Origin: Catenulispora pinistramenti
GTDB lineage: Bacteria; Actinomycetota; Actinomycetes; Streptomycetales; Catenulisporaceae
Direction of reading: 5' to 3'
Assembly: GCF_018274385.1 (NCBI RefSeq)
Contig: NZ_JAAFYZ010000014.1
Location: 1-64,000, forward strand
DNA: 64,000 bases
A model generated the notes under the pieces. It made no database searches. It saw nothing but the letters and a program-made list of their open reading frames with translations, and was not told the origin of the DNA. Below are positions 58,484 to 64,000 of the stretch, in pieces (positions within the stretch are counted from its first letter, which is position 1; every line of letters begins with the position of its first letter). The translations under genes and the position numbers were made by a program.

Positions 58484-59830
58484 TCACGAGAAGACCCCCA
58501 GCGGGTCCCCGGACATGCCGGCGGTGAGGGTGTCGCCGCTGGCCGGGTCGATCAGCAGGAACGAGCCGGTCTCGCGGTCGGTGGCGTAGGGCTCCAGCAG
58601 GATCGGCGAGGCGGTGCGCAGGACCACCCGGCCGATGTCGTTGGCGTGCAGGGTGTGCGGGGCCGGGGCGTCGTGGTCCCAGTCGAACTCGTCGGTCCCG
58701 GCCGGGCCGGCGGCGGCGGCGGCCAGCGGGTCGGTGATGTCCAGCTTGGCGGAGATCTCCTTCACGATCGCCTTGACCGTGCGGGTGGTGTGCTTCAGCA
58801 GCACCCGGTCGCCGACGCTCAGCGGCTTCTCCGACAGGTGGCAGACGGTCGCCACCACGTCTTGCACCGCGGTCGGGGCGGCCTCGGCCGGGGCGATCAG
58901 GTCGCCGCGGGAGACGTCCAGCTCGTCGGTCAGCAGCACGGTGGCGGCCTGCCCGGCGGTGGCCCGCTCGACCGGGCGGCCCAGCAGGTCTATGGCGGCG
59001 ATCGTCGAGCGCTGACCCGAGGGCAGCACCACGATCGGGTCGCCGACCTCCAGGTGCCCGGAGGCGACGGTACCGGCGTAGCCGCGGTAGTCGGCGCTCT
59101 GGTGCCGGATCACGTACTGCACCGGGAACCGGCCGGCCGGGCGCCGCTCGGTCTGGACCGGGACGTTCTCCAGGAACTCCAGCAGCGTCGGGCCCTCGAA
59201 CCAGGCCAGATCCGCCGAGGGCTCCACGACGTTGTCCCCGCGCAGCGCCGACACCGGAAGCGCCGCGTGGTGCTCGATTCCGAGCGCGCTGGCGTAGGCG
59301 GCGAAGTCGGCCTCGATCTCGGCGAACCGGTCCTTGTCGAAGTCGACCAGGTCCATCTTGTTCACCGCCAGCAGCACCCGCGGCACCCGCAGCAGGGCCG
59401 AGACCGCGGTGTGGCGCAGGGTTTGCGAGGCCAGACCCTTGCGAGCGTCGACCAGAATGACCGCCAGCTCGGCGGTCGAGGCGCCGGTGACCATGTTGCG
59501 GGTGTACTGCACGTGCCCGGGTGTGTCGGCCAGGATGAACCGGCGCTTGGGCGTGGCGAAGTAGCGGTAGGCGACATCGATGGTGATGCCCTGCTCCCGC
59601 TCGGAGCGCAGTCCGTCGGTCAGCAGCGCCAGGTCCGCCTGTTCCAGCCCGCGGTTGCGCGAGGTGCGCTCCACCGCCTCGTACTGGTCGGCCAGCACCG
59701 ACTTGGTGTCGAAGAGCAGCCGGCCCACCAGGGTCGACTTGCCGTCGTCGACGCTGCCGGCGGTGGCCAGCCGCAGCAGTCCGGCGACGTGGGTGTCCTT
59801 AGAGGTCGGCGCGTCCAGCAGCACAGTCAT
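58484..59830 (-). CDS. cysN: Sulfate adenylyltransferase GTPase subunit
   Basis: 448 residues. CysN hydrolyses GTP to drive formation of APS from sulfate and ATP by CysD. GTPase motifs: P-loop ATAGSVDDGKSTLVGRL, switch region EQGITIDVAYRYF, DTPGHVQYTRNM and NKMDLVDF; EF-Tu-like barrels follow. There is no fused APS kinase (CysC), so the length is that of the stand-alone form. Two bases separate it from cysD. Confidence 0.96.
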   Translation of the reverse strand: MTVLLDAPTSKDTHVAGLLRLATAGSVDDGKSTLVGRLLFDTKSVLADQYEAVERTSRNRGLEQADLALLTDGLRSEREQGITIDVAYRYFATPKRRFILADTPGHVQYTRNMVTGASTAELAVILVDARKGLASQTLRHTAVSALLRVPRVLLAVNKMDLVDFDKDRFAEIEADFAAYASALGIEHHAALPVSALRGDNVVEPSADLAWFEGPTLLEFLENVPVQTERRPAGRFPVQYVIRHQSADYRGYAGTVASGHLEVGDPIVVLPSGQRSTIAAIDLLGRPVERATAGQAATVLLTDELDVSRGDLIAPAEAAPTAVQDVVATVCHLSEKPLSVGDRVLLKHTTRTVKAIVKEISAKLDITDPLAAAAAGPAGTDEFDWDHDAPAPHTLHANDIGRVVLRTASPILLEPYATDRETGSFLLIDPASGDTLTAGMSGDPLGVFS

Positions 59831-59832
59831 GA

Positions 59833-60756
59833 CTAGAAGTACCCTTCTCGCTTACGGTCCTCCATAGCCGCCTCGGACAGGCGGTCGTCCGCGCGGGAGG
59901 CCCCGCGCTCGGTGATCCGGGAAGCAGTGATCTCAGCGATGACCGTGGCCACGTCGACGGCGGTGGAATCCACCGCGCCGGTGCACGACATGTCCCCGAC
60001 AGTCCGGTAACGCACTACGCGGGTCTGGACCGGCTCGTCTTCGCGCGGCCCGCCCCAGTCGCCGGGGGACAGCCACATGCCGCCTCGGGCGAACACCTGC
60101 CGCTCGTGCGCGTAGTAGATCTCCGGCAGCACGATGTCCTGCTCGGCGATGTACTGCCACACGTCCAGCTCGGTCCAGTTGGACAGCGGGAACACCCGCA
60201 CGTGCTCACCGGGCCGGTGCCGGCCGTTGTACAGCCGCCACAGCTCCGGACGCTGCCGCTTGGGGTCCCACTGCCCGAAGTCGTCGCGCAGCGAGAAGAC
60301 CCGCTCTTTCGCGCGGGCCTTCTCCTCGTCGCGACGTCCGCCGCCGAAGACGGCGTCGAATTTGTGGGATTGGATCGCGTCCACCAGCGGCACTGTCTGC
60401 AACGGGTTACGCGTCCCGTCCGGGCGCTCGGTCAGCCGGCCGTCGTCGATGTAGTCCTGGACGTGCGCCACGAACAACTGGAGCCCGTGCTCGGCAACAG
60501 TGCGGTCGCGCATCGCCAGCACCTCCGGGAAGTTGTGCCCGGTGTCCACGTGCAGCAGCCCGAACGGCACCGGCGCCGGCGCGAACGCCTTCAGCGCCAG
60601 GTGCAGCATGACGATCGAGTCCTTGCCGCCGGAGAACAACAGCACCGGCCGCTCGAACTCGGCCGCCACCTCGCGGATGATGTGCACCGCCTCGGCCTCC
60701 AGCGTGCGCAGGTGATCGTGCGCCGGGGCCGTCTCGTCGTGGGTCAGGGTAGTCAT
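59833..60756 (-). CDS. cysD: Sulfate adenylyltransferase catalytic subunit
   Basis: 307 residues of the PP-loop ATP pyrophosphatase fold: LLFSGGKDSIVMLHLAL, LLHVDTGHNFPEV, VFGGGRRDEEKARAKERVFS and FPLSNWTELDVWQYI are all intact. It forms APS with CysN. One base separates its ATG from the cysH stop, so the three genes are tightly coupled. Confidence 0.97.
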   Translation of the reverse strand: MTTLTHDETAPAHDHLRTLEAEAVHIIREVAAEFERPVLLFSGGKDSIVMLHLALKAFAPAPVPFGLLHVDTGHNFPEVLAMRDRTVAEHGLQLFVAHVQDYIDDGRLTERPDGTRNPLQTVPLVDAIQSHKFDAVFGGGRRDEEKARAKERVFSLRDDFGQWDPKRQRPELWRLYNGRHRPGEHVRVFPLSNWTELDVWQYIAEQDIVLPEIYYAHERQVFARGGMWLSPGDWGGPREDEPVQTRVVRYRTVGDMSCTGAVDSTAVDVATVIAEITASRITERGASRADDRLSEAAMEDRKREGYF

Positions 60757-60757
60757 G

Positions 60758-61480
60758 TCAGGTGTGCAGTCCGCATTCGGTCTTGGCGTTGCCGGCCCAC
60801 CGGCCGGCCCGCGGGTCCTCGCCGGGCCGGGGCTTGCGCGTGCAGGGCTCGCAGCCGATCGAGGTGTAACCCTCCATGAACAGGGGGTTGGTCAGCACGC
60901 CGTGGTCGGTGATGTAGGCGTCGAGGTCGGCCTGGGTCCAGGCGGCGAGCGGGGAGATCTTGACCATGTCGCGCTTGGCGTCGTAGCCGACCACCGGGAT
61001 GTCCGCGCGGGTCGGGGACTCCTCGCGGCGCATGCCGTTGATCCAGGCCGTGTACGGCTTCAGCGCCCGCTCCAGCGGCTCGACCTTGCGCAGCGCACAA
61101 CACTTGTCGGGGTCGCGCTCGTAAAGCCGCGGGCCGTGTTCGGCGTCCTGCTCGGCGACCGTCCGCAGCGGGGTGATGTTCAGCAGCCGCACCGGGTACA
61201 CCTCGGCGACGGCGTCCCGGGTGCCGATGGTCTCGGCGAAGTGGTAGCCGGTGTCCAGGAACGCGACGTCGATGTCCGGCGCCGCGACGGAGGCCAGGTG
61301 CACCAGGTGGGTGTCGGCCATCGAGGAGGCGACGACCAGGTCCGTGCCGAAGGTGGCGTGGGCCCATTCGACGATCCGCCCGGCCGGGGCGTGTTCCAGC
61401 TCTGCGTTGGCCTGCTCGGCCAGCGCTCGCAGGTCGCCGGCCCGGGGCTTGACCGACGCGGGTGCGGTGTCCGCTGACAT
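60758..61480 (-). CDS. cysH: APS reductase (assimilatory, [4Fe-4S])
   Basis: 240 residues. Two cysteine pairs (Cys127-Cys128 in PDKCCALRKVEP and Cys210/Cys213 in IGCEPCTRKP) bind a [4Fe-4S] cluster, which marks use of APS rather than PAPS; Cys236 in ECGLHT is the catalytic residue. So sulfate can be reduced without APS kinase, in keeping with the absence of cysC. The ribosome site AAGGGG lies in a small stem (GGGGAAGCCCC). The gene is first in the operon behind the leader peptide at 61634. Confidence 0.96.
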   Translation of the reverse strand: MSADTAPASVKPRAGDLRALAEQANAELEHAPAGRIVEWAHATFGTDLVVASSMADTHLVHLASVAAPDIDVAFLDTGYHFAETIGTRDAVAEVYPVRLLNITPLRTVAEQDAEHGPRLYERDPDKCCALRKVEPLERALKPYTAWINGMRREESPTRADIPVVGYDAKRDMVKISPLAAWTQADLDAYITDHGVLTNPLFMEGYTSIGCEPCTRKPRPGEDPRAGRWAGNAKTECGLHT

Positions 61481-61504
61481 TTCGGGGCTTCCCCTTACAG
61501 TGGC

Positions 61505-61538
61505 GGGCGCGCGGGCGTGCCGGACGCCCGACGCGCCC
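61505..61538 (-). terminator. Attenuator-like hairpin between leader peptide and cysH
   Basis: Arms 61505-61518 and 61524-61538 pair over 14 bp with one bulged base (61531) around GCCGG. It lies 25 bases upstream of the cysH start and 96 bases after the leader-peptide stop, where an attenuator or ribosome-site-masking structure would act. Confidence 0.6.
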
Positions 61539-61633
61539 GGACCGCATGAGGCGGCGTCCTCGGACGGCGTGGGGGAAGGGCCGGCGGGACCGTGCGCCCT
61601 GAAGGATCTTCGGTGACAGATCGCGGGCGAGGT

Positions 61634-61720
61634 CTACTGGGCCGGCATACAGACCATGCTGGACAGCCGTCCGAAGTCGACGTGACGCCGACCGACGAGC
61701 GCGATTCCAGCACGAGACAT
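61634..61720 (-). CDS. Leader peptide of the cys operon, 28 residues
   Basis: From ATG 61720 the frame encodes MSRAGIALVGRRHVDFGRLS followed by SMVCMPAQ and a TAG stop. The pattern MSR.GIAL...RHVD..R..S..C is that of the short putative leader peptides found upstream of sulfur-assimilation genes in many actinobacteria. One Cys codon lies near the end, suited to sensing cysteinyl-tRNA or translation speed. No Shine-Dalgarno is seen, so it may be leaderless. It lies 153 bases upstream of cysH. Confidence 0.8.
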   Translation of the reverse strand: MSRAGIALVGRRHVDFGRLSSMVCMPAQ

Positions 61721-61747
61721 GCTTAGAGAGTCGCACGCGGTCCGCGG

Positions 61748-61805
61748 GTCGTCCACTGTCGTCCATGATGCGGACCATGTGTCTCACGCCACGTTGAGGT
61801 GGCGT
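61748..61805. promoter_or_regulatory. Repeats in the cysH/LLM divergent promoter
   Basis: GTCGTCCA occurs at 61748 and 61758, exactly 10 bp apart, 28 bases upstream of the leader-peptide start. A perfect dyad ACGCCAC-N6-GTGGCGT lies at 61786-61805. Either could be a regulator site; which gene is served is not known. Confidence 0.5.
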
Positions 61806-61962
61806 AATGGGGTTGTTGCGCCGGAGTCGGGGCTTTAGGCTGCCGATACTCCGAGAGGGAGCTCCCCAGAGGGAACGCCGCAGAACGGGAGCCTTAGGCT
61901 TCGCATTGCCGAAGTCCTGGAGGGGGCGGCATTGTTTCGTCGTTCCCTTATGGAGGTTATTC

Positions 61963-62811
61963 ATGGAAGTCGGAATCGGCTTGCCCGTCAGCACCCCCGA
62001 GGTGCTGCTCGACTGGGCCCGGGCCGCTGACACCGGACCGTTCTCCACCCTCGGTCTGCTCGACCGTATCGTCTTTGAGAACCCCGAACCGCTGGTGACG
62101 CTGTCCGTCCTGGCCGGTGCGACCACCCGGGTCCGGCTGCAGACCGAGGTGCTGCTGGCGCCGCTGCGCGAGCCCGTCCTGCTGGCCAAGCAGGCCGCCA
62201 CCCTCGACCGGCTCAGCGGCGGCCGCTTCGTCCTGGGGCTGGGCGTCGGCGGCCGGGAGGACGACTTCGAGGCGGTCGGCGCCGACTACCGGTCGCGCGG
62301 CCGGCGCATGGACGAGCAGATGGAAGTGATGCGGCGCGTCTGGTCCGGCGCTGACTACAGCGACACCCTGGGCCCGATCGGCCCGCTGCCCCACCGCGAG
62401 AACGGCCCCGAGGTGCTGTTCGGCGCGTTCGCGCCGGCCGCGCTGGGCCGGATCGCCCGATTCGGCGACGGACTGCTGGCCGTCGCGCCGCCGCAGATGA
62501 TCGGCGCTCAGATCGAAACGGTTCGCCGAACCTGGCAGGAGGCCGGCCGGGACGGAGCGCCGCGGATCGTCGCCCAGGTCAACGCCGCGCTCGGCCCCGA
62601 GCCGGTGATCGAGGAGGCCCGTACGGCGATGGGCGGCTACTACCGCTTCGCCGGCGAGATGGGCGAGCAGTTCGTCGCCGCGATGATCACCACGCCGGAG
62701 GGGGTCCGGGAGGCCGTCGCGGCGTACGCCGACCAGGGCGTCGACGAGGTGATGTTCTACTGCTACGGCCGCGACCCCAAGCAGGTCGACCGGCTGGCCG
62801 ACGCGCTCTGA
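61963..62811 (+). CDS. LLM-class flavin-dependent oxidoreductase
   Basis: 282 residues of the luciferase-like TIM-barrel family (VLLAPLREPVLLAKQAATLD, RLSGGRFVLGLGVGGREDDF, EQMEVMRRVWSG). GGAGG lies 8 bases before ATG 61963. Members use FMN or F420. The late region (AAYADQGVDEVMFYCYGRD) is also typical. The substrate is unknown; its place opposite the sulfur operon could hint at a sulfonate-related monooxygenase, but that is inference only. Confidence 0.9.
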   Translation: MEVGIGLPVSTPEVLLDWARAADTGPFSTLGLLDRIVFENPEPLVTLSVLAGATTRVRLQTEVLLAPLREPVLLAKQAATLDRLSGGRFVLGLGVGGREDDFEAVGADYRSRGRRMDEQMEVMRRVWSGADYSDTLGPIGPLPHRENGPEVLFGAFAPAALGRIARFGDGLLAVAPPQMIGAQIETVRRTWQEAGRDGAPRIVAQVNAALGPEPVIEEARTAMGGYYRFAGEMGEQFVAAMITTPEGVREAVAAYADQGVDEVMFYCYGRDPKQVDRLADAL

Positions 62812-62898: not shown

Positions 62899-64000
62899 TC
62901 AGAGCAGCCGCGCGTTGTGTGTCGCCTCCTTGACGACGTCGCCGAGGTGGCCGGTCAGCGCCTGCTTGGCGACGCTGAGCGTGAAGCCCTTGATCGTCTC
63001 GGCCGGGGTGTGCGCCGGTAGCGCCAGTGCGTAGGGATCGACCACCACGTCGACCACCACCGGACCCCCGCGGTGGTTCAGGGCCTCCTTCAGGCCCTGT
63101 TCCAGATCCGCGGGGCGTTCGATCCTGATGCCCCTGGCACCCATCGCCTCGGCGACCTTGGCGAAGTCCGGGTTCTGGAAGTCCACGCCCCACGGTGTGA
63201 GCCCGGCCTCCTGCATCTCGATCCAGACGAAGTCGAGCTTGCCGTTGTTCAGGATCACGTGCACGATCTCGGCCTTGCGCTGCACCTCCGTGAGGAGGTC
63301 GCCGAGGCCGAGCATCGTGAAGCCGCCGTCGCCGCACAGGGCGATCGCCGCGCGGTCCGGGAAGGCCATCTTGGCGCCGAACGCGTTCGGCGAGGCGCTG
63401 GCCATCGAGGCCCAAGTGAGGCTGCCGAACATGTGGCGCTTCGGGCCGAAGTGCAGGTAGTGCGCGGCCCAGATGCACGCGGTGCCGGTGTCCACGGTGA
63501 AGACCGCCTCTTCGGGCGCGAGCCGGTCCAGGGTCGCGGTCAGGTACTCGGGACGGATCTGCTTCAGGGCCGGGCCGCGTTCGACATAGTGCTGCAACTG
63601 CTTGTCGAAGTCCTCTGTCTTCTTCAGACACTTGCGCAGGAAGCTGTCGTCGGTCTTCGCCGACACCTGCGGCAGCAGTTTGTCCAGGGTCGCACCGACG
63701 TCGCCGACCAGCCCGTGGACCAGCGGCACGCGGCGGCCCAGCCGGCGGCCGTCCCGGTCCACCTGGACCACCTTGACGCCGCTGTGCGGGAGGAACTGCG
63801 GGAACGGGAAGTCCGTGCCGAGCATCAGGAGCACGTCGGCGTGGTTCGCCGCCTCCCAGCAGCCGCCGTAGCCGAGCAGCCCGGTCATGCCGACCGCGTG
63901 CGGGTTGTCGTACTCCAGCCACTGCTTGCCCTTGAAGCTGTAGCCGACCGGTGCGTTCAGCTTGTCCGCGAGGGCGCGGACCTGATCCCGGGCGTTCTGG
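62899..64000 (-). CDS. poxB: Pyruvate dehydrogenase (quinone)/pyruvate oxidase-like, 5' end cut
   Basis: The C-terminal 367 or so residues of a thiamine-diphosphate enzyme; the frame runs open to the right edge (QNARDQVRALADKLNAPVGY at the edge), so the N-terminal third is outside the window. The central domain (GYGGCWEAANHADVLLMLGT) and the ThDP-binding motif CGDGGFTMLGLGDL ending in ILNNGK are present. The sequence fits the PoxB branch, which oxidises pyruvate to acetate and passes electrons to quinone; acetolactate-synthase-like relatives cannot be ruled out from the visible part. Confidence 0.88.
   Translation of the reverse strand, partial: QNARDQVRALADKLNAPVGYSFKGKQWLEYDNPHAVGMTGLLGYGGCWEAANHADVLLMLGTDFPFPQFLPHSGVKVVQVDRDGRRLGRRVPLVHGLVGDVGATLDKLLPQVSAKTDDSFLRKCLKKTEDFDKQLQHYVERGPALKQIRPEYLTATLDRLAPEEAVFTVDTGTACIWAAHYLHFGPKRHMFGSLTWASMASASPNAFGAKMAFPDRAAIALCGDGGFTMLGLGDLLTEVQRKAEIVHVILNNGKLDFVWIEMQEAGLTPWGVDFQNPDFAKVAEAMGARGIRIERPADLEQGLKEALNHRGGPVVVDVVVDPYALALPAHTPAETIKGFTLSVAKQALTGHLGDVVKEATHNARLL

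Follow-up and report, generated by a model that had tools for sequence, protein, structure and literature searches.

The stretch of DNA that we analysed (the window) comprises 64,000 nucleotides of the 11.5 Mb genome of Catenulispora pinistramenti and carries, on its minus strand, a group of sulfur genes preceded by a very short open reading frame. This frame (61634..61720, minus strand) consists of 28 codons and a TAG stop, encodes the peptide MSRAGIALVGRRHVDFGRLSSMVCMPAQ with C24 as its single cysteine, and is fully or nearly identical in ten Catenulispora genomes. Its stop lies 153 nt ahead of the start (61480) of cysH, the gene for phosphoadenylyl-sulfate reductase (CysH/PAPS reductase; 60758..61480, minus strand), which is followed by cysD (59833..60756, minus) and cysN (58484..59830, minus), coding for the small and large subunits of sulfate adenylyltransferase, respectively. 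The original prediction of a 28-residue peptide with an RHVD...Cys pattern upstream of cysH holds at these positions. The CysH proteins of the window and of Catenulispora pinisilvae share 98% identity; the latter species has a second CysH-like gene (locus L032, 6001-6666), 80% identical, and no leader of this type was found near it. The leader, the hairpins and the ribosome-site stem described below were present in ten of the ten Catenulispora genomes examined, and because of this recurrence we do not attribute the leader and its RNA elements to chance.

Comparison of the window peptide with NCBIfam profiles gave as its best family match the Ms4527A type (NF042936, leader_Ms4527A; 28.5 bits, E 8e-7), with a further match to cis_reg_atten (NF042934; 20.4 bits, E 3e-4), and because these scores fall under both curated cut-offs (at least 45 and at least 27 bits, respectively) the peptide is best described as a relative of these families. 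It has the same 19-residue core as NF042934, with all four invariant residues, and differs in having Gly at -7, where Cys, Gln or Leu are commoner. The wider class of actinobacterial cysteine leaders, recognised by Arg -13, Asp -9, Arg -6 and Cys 0 at fixed spacing, takes in the window peptide through R11, D15, R18 and C24, and its Cys 0 is encoded by TGT (61649..61651, minus strand), the codon that we found at this position in the wider class. The claim that the peptide is a conserved actinobacterial leader of the cysteine class before sulfur genes, with a conserved Cys codon, was likewise upheld. We regard the frame ahead of cysH as a genuine leader of a known type that looks functional, in a one-Cys variant.

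This genome holds 13 leaders of the cysteine type, some of them under the curated cut-offs; eight leaders other than that of the window reach the cut-off of NF042934. Among the products of the genes behind the 13 are a sulfonate-binding protein, ThiS with cysteine synthase, sulfite reductase, CysH, two luciferase-like monooxygenases, TauD, a rhodanese and several transporters. The window peptide was matched in 198 of 198 genomes in an order-wide search, a class-wide sample of Actinomycetes contained at least one leader in 79 of 118 genomes (50 of 73 genera), and a phylum-wide search gave matches in only 3 of 60 genomes, all three within the Actinomycetes class. A motif search of the Cellulomonas cysH loci (L038-L055), confined to leaders of the GIALV type, did not find that type.

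Examination of 88 distinct cores from the class-wide sample showed Arg -13, Asp -9, Arg -6 and Cys 0 to be invariant in all of them while the Arg and Asp codons vary widely, which indicates that the peptide itself is under selection. Pairwise differences at 4-fold sites among the ten Catenulispora genomes amounted to 3.5% in the leader against 20% in cysH, and this low divergence therefore points to a constraint beyond the peptide. Codons 2-10 of the Streptomyces leaders are conserved and made of rare A/T-rich codons (TCT, GGA, ATT, TTG, AGT), unlike the GC-rich second half. Upstream of the window leader, alignment revealed a -10-like element, GACTCT (61727..61732, minus strand), with A and T at the two conserved positions (class-wide, NANNNT peaks at -8/-7), and a -35-like element, TGGAC (61751..61755, minus strand), conserved in Catenulispora and Streptomyces leaders; both stand at leaderless spacing, with the transcript start predicted at or adjoining the leader ATG. 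In 55% of leaders a -10-like pattern ends 7 or 8 bases upstream of the start, against about 2-3% at most other offsets; a Shine-Dalgarno-like site is present in only 12%. Such a promoter pattern would be the signature of leaderless transcripts.

The cysteine that ends the motif is encoded by an invariant UGU throughout the family. All 76 of the Streptomyces and Catenulispora leaders tabulated have TGT at Cys 0, in genomes in which TGT accounts for only 9 to 16% of Cys codons, and the 13 paralogous leaders of this genome all have TGT there and mostly TGC at their other cysteines. In the class-wide sample, drawn mostly from new genera and counted with the shortened loci L176, L179, L190 and L191 left out, Cys 0 was UGU in 92 of 92 leaders, a constancy that has no simple probability because the sequences are related; the other Cys positions of the same peptides had 107 UGC against 20 UGU (84% UGC). 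The class-wide searches could not have favoured a codon because they were run at the protein level. When a degenerate pattern of the Streptomyces sir leader was sought in 294 Streptomycetales genomes, its TGT version occurred in 238 and its TGC version in 0. The codons neighbouring the UGU have changed many times among leaders. A fixed UGU was not reported in the literature that we searched, whose coverage of subscription journals was thin and which is thus weak evidence of novelty; the rule that Cys 0 is always UGU appears to be undescribed so far.

These observations allow several explanations. A cause at the RNA or DNA level (base pairing, or a protein or nuclease site), rather than decoding, may have fixed the UGU, and the unusually conserved 4-fold sites of the Catenulispora leaders do speak for a constraint at the RNA level; however, the flanking codons vary on both sides, UGU is kept before unrelated genes, and no enrichment of its complement was found downstream (ACA 48 against 51 expected; 4-base complement 24 against 18.6 expected), so that we regard this explanation as unlikely. 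That the frame is untranslated, its conservation reflecting promoter and RNA structure only, would agree with the very few nucleotide changes among Catenulispora, but it is very hard to reconcile with amino acids that are kept across genera while their codons change, with the leaderless start signal at the ATG and with the ribosome occupancy reported for a mycobacterial Cys leader (PMC4633059). Attenuation might also depend on supply only, any Cys codon serving and the peptide sequence being irrelevant, as the universal Cys codon near the stop and the Cys runs of mycobacterial-type members would suggest. Yet many members, including the window leader, have a single Cys codon, the Arg/Asp/Arg residues are invariant with varying codons, UGU is strict at Cys 0 whereas UGC prevails among the other Cys codons, and the Rhodobacterales cysS leader, in contrast, uses mostly UGC (PMC8632094); we consider a supply-only mechanism quite improbable.

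Two hairpins lie between the Cys codon and cysH. The one called H2 (GCCGGC...GCCGGC; 61580..61646, minus strand) follows just after the Cys codon and encloses the leader stop, with conserved stems, a variable inner loop and a z of -2.8 against shuffles. The other is a strong bulged hairpin (61505..61538, minus strand) of 14 G-C-rich pairs with one bulged U, placed 24 nt before the cysH ATG, whose local fold has an energy of -33.6 kcal/mol, whereas shuffled sequences average -25.3 (z -2.8) and 1 in 200 of them reaches the same stability; 97% of its cells are paired across ten species. For each of the two hairpins, 197 to 199 of 200 shuffles were less stable. The cysH ribosome site itself lies in a small stem, GGGG-AAG-CCCC (61484..61494, minus strand). 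Both the bulged hairpin, kept in ten Catenulispora, and the second small stem with the ribosome site had been foreseen in the original prediction; the covariation check that it proposed yielded no compensatory changes in the ten Catenulispora, because the pairs hardly vary. H2 does not figure in that prediction, nor do the invariant UGU, the leaderless promoter pattern, the C-rich stretch after the leader and the second leader ahead of sir. We found no U-tract or terminator-like site of an intrinsic attenuator in the gap between leader and cysH, no Rfam match at the locus and, in an alignment of 13 Streptomyces sir leaders, no convincing common fold after the leader. Since the 61505-61538 hairpin was not seen in the Streptomyces homologues, it is not counted as part of the shared core. 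In the Streptomyces sir leaders (L056-L105) the ribosome site GAAGGAC is often within a mini-hairpin, GUCC-CGAA-GGAC, different in sequence from the cysH stem and the same in arrangement.

The unmasking model was evaluated by folding 41 sequences (10 Catenulispora, 31 Streptomyces sir genes) with three ribosome positions against none. With a stalled ribosome the opening energy of the ribosome site went from 9.4 to 9.95 kcal/mol in the ten Catenulispora and from 8.60 to 8.45 kcal/mol in the 31 Streptomyces sir genes, and the proposal that a ribosome stalled at Cys frees the ribosome site was not supported, there being no consistent opening in the 41 sequences. The cysteine-responsive, translation-coupled attenuation that had been suggested for this locus is supported in part: the conserved Cys-class leader before sulfur genes stands, while the freeing of the ribosome site found no support in this test. 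Pure translational attenuation, in which folding masks the cysH ribosome site and a ribosome stalled at Cys opens it (also the model for M. smegmatis), would be consistent with a ribosome site within a conserved small stem, with the partly kept upstream segment of the CUUCCCC type, complementary to GGGGAAG, with hairpins conserved in ten Catenulispora and with the mycobacterial precedent given in PMC9031893 and PMC13091356. It is weakened by an opening energy that fell by no more than 0.5 kcal/mol, if at all, in 9 of the 10 Catenulispora and 22 of the 31 Streptomyces sequences, by the lack of compensatory changes and by downstream structures that are not common to Streptomyces. We view it as a serious but doubtful alternative.

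Stretches in which C exceeds G are the usual mark of Rho loading. The gap between leader and cysH (61481..61633, minus strand) is a candidate for such a region, with a skew of 0.127 over its first 110 nt. Across the leaders the signal is strong and sets in exactly at the leader stop: over the next 120 nt or so, C climbs to about 45% while G drops to about 28%. Averaged over 90 leaders, the C>G skew was 0.158, whereas it was 0.046 upstream of other genes (p = 8e-18) and 0.010 after other stops (p = 5e-24). This skew is a composition signal and not proof of Rho binding, and because it was noticed after the folding test had failed it should be taken as a lead and not as a planned test. Rho has been proposed for mycobacterial cys leaders on other grounds (PMC1262725), and genes downstream of uORFs can be subject to both routes of control simultaneously (PMC12121999).

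Taking all of these results, the reading that we favour, and hold to be probable with due reserve, is that the peptide assists a pause at the UGU under Cys-tRNA scarcity and that control is exerted downstream by Rho termination or by masking of the ribosome site. The leaderless mRNA would begin at the leader AUG, and the ribosome would make the RRHVD.GR...C peptide and slow at the single UGU when Cys-tRNA is scarce, a pause to which Arg -13, Asp -9 and Arg -6 in the nascent peptide may add strength, together with wobble decoding of UGU by the single Cys tRNA. With cysteine plentiful the ribosome would finish and leave at the stop a few codons on, the C-rich, G-poor RNA being left naked, which may favour termination by Rho or keep the cysH ribosome site closed; a paused ribosome may relieve either of the two.

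The comparative evidence behind the sensing part of the favoured reading is strong, whereas its output part is our inference. The conserved peptide, whose Arg and Asp codons vary freely, the UGU of all 92 class-wide leaders and of the pattern counts (238 genomes against 0), and the 13 paralogues, all with UGU at Cys 0 and placed before sulfur-assimilation, sulfonate, cysteine-synthase, rhodanese, TauD and transporter genes, argue for it, as do the leaderless promoter signal, the skew of 0.158 after the leader stop and the cysteine response of mycobacterial relatives reported in PMC9031893 and PMC13091356. Several points argue against it. A ribosome halted a few codons ahead of the stop would cover just the beginning of the C-rich stretch, which makes a block of Rho hard to explain. 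Reviews of the mycobacterial work describe control at the level of translation, and in the folding calculations a ribosome stalled at Cys did not open the ribosome site. A bolder version, which we offer tentatively and would not expect to hold in full, is that of an Actinomycetes arrest peptide in which one UGU, and not Cys codons generally, would be the sensor, the nascent chain and wobble decoding would pause the ribosome, the C-rich RNA would hand the decision to Rho, and a dozen sulfur operons would form one regulon without a protein regulator. TnaC controls Rho termination. The leader studied here would resemble it in its working, through conserved residues in a short nascent chain (PMC8429421, PMC10941005); unlike the proposed UGU pause, TnaC senses free tryptophan at its stop codon, and the likeness drawn here concerns function.

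Actinobacterial cysteine leaders have so far been known mainly as mycobacterial polycysteine tracts. The leaderless Cys sORFs of M. smegmatis are described in reviews as exerting cysteine-responsive control (PMC9031893, PMC13091356). Like the Ms4527A-type polycysteine leaderless sORFs of mycobacteria (NF042936; Canestrari 2020), the window leader is a short ORF before sulfur genes, predicted here to be leaderless, with an RR.VD..R core and a Cys near the stop; unlike them it has one Cys and not a Cys run, and in this comparison the C-rich stretch was examined for the class of the window leader. The cys leaders of Seliverstov 2005 (including acnes) also have Cys codons near the stop and no terminator hairpin, with Rho suggested by the authors, but carry runs of Cys codons, and the cys operons of Streptomyces and Catenulispora are not described in the accessible part of that paper (PMC1262725). 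The Rhodobacterales cysS attenuator uORFC-8-2 likewise has conserved Cys codons in a uORF that precedes a Cys gene, and differs in its tandem Cys, dominant UGC and intrinsic terminator (PMC8632094). In our comparison the core shared by the actinobacterial leaders is one position whose codon is fixed, set within a conserved peptide. This moves the question from the number of Cys codons to why UGU and why this nascent chain, and a one-base synonymous change from UGU to UGC would be a direct test of the sensing step.

A close relative of the leader, MSRAGIALVSRRHVDLGRMSSAIC..., precedes sir in Streptomyces, about 2.1 kb ahead of cysH. In Catenulispora a distance of about 5.5 to 8.4 kb separates the sir leader from the cysH leader. 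In this genome the genes that lie between the two are unrelated, and the second leader, MSRAGIALVSRRHVDYGRLSSMACTVRTAL, stands before the sulfite reductase gene outside the window (G000:C46:70002-70076; L006, L154) and is followed by a C-rich gap with a skew of 0.255. The Streptomyces sir-cysH operon is split in this genome, each half with its own leader. An Actinospica locus likewise has two leaders, and the paired leaders of both genera therefore indicate that the leader follows transcription units; it would travel with each new unit of a split operon as a portable control module. Between the sulfur units, the window encodes a luciferase-like oxidoreductase on the plus strand (61807-62811), whose start is probably near 61963, and on the minus strand a thiamine-diphosphate enzyme similar to pyruvate oxidase (62899-64000). 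Just 3' of sir (L154) there is a small Cys-rich ORF, zinc ribbon-like (APAYCPYCGDEDL...CRSCRRVFEV). A third leader on the same contig (G000:C46:71733-71786; L018) has three Cys codons, TGC, TGC and TGT, and precedes a symporter of the sodium:dicarboxylate type that may carry cystine.
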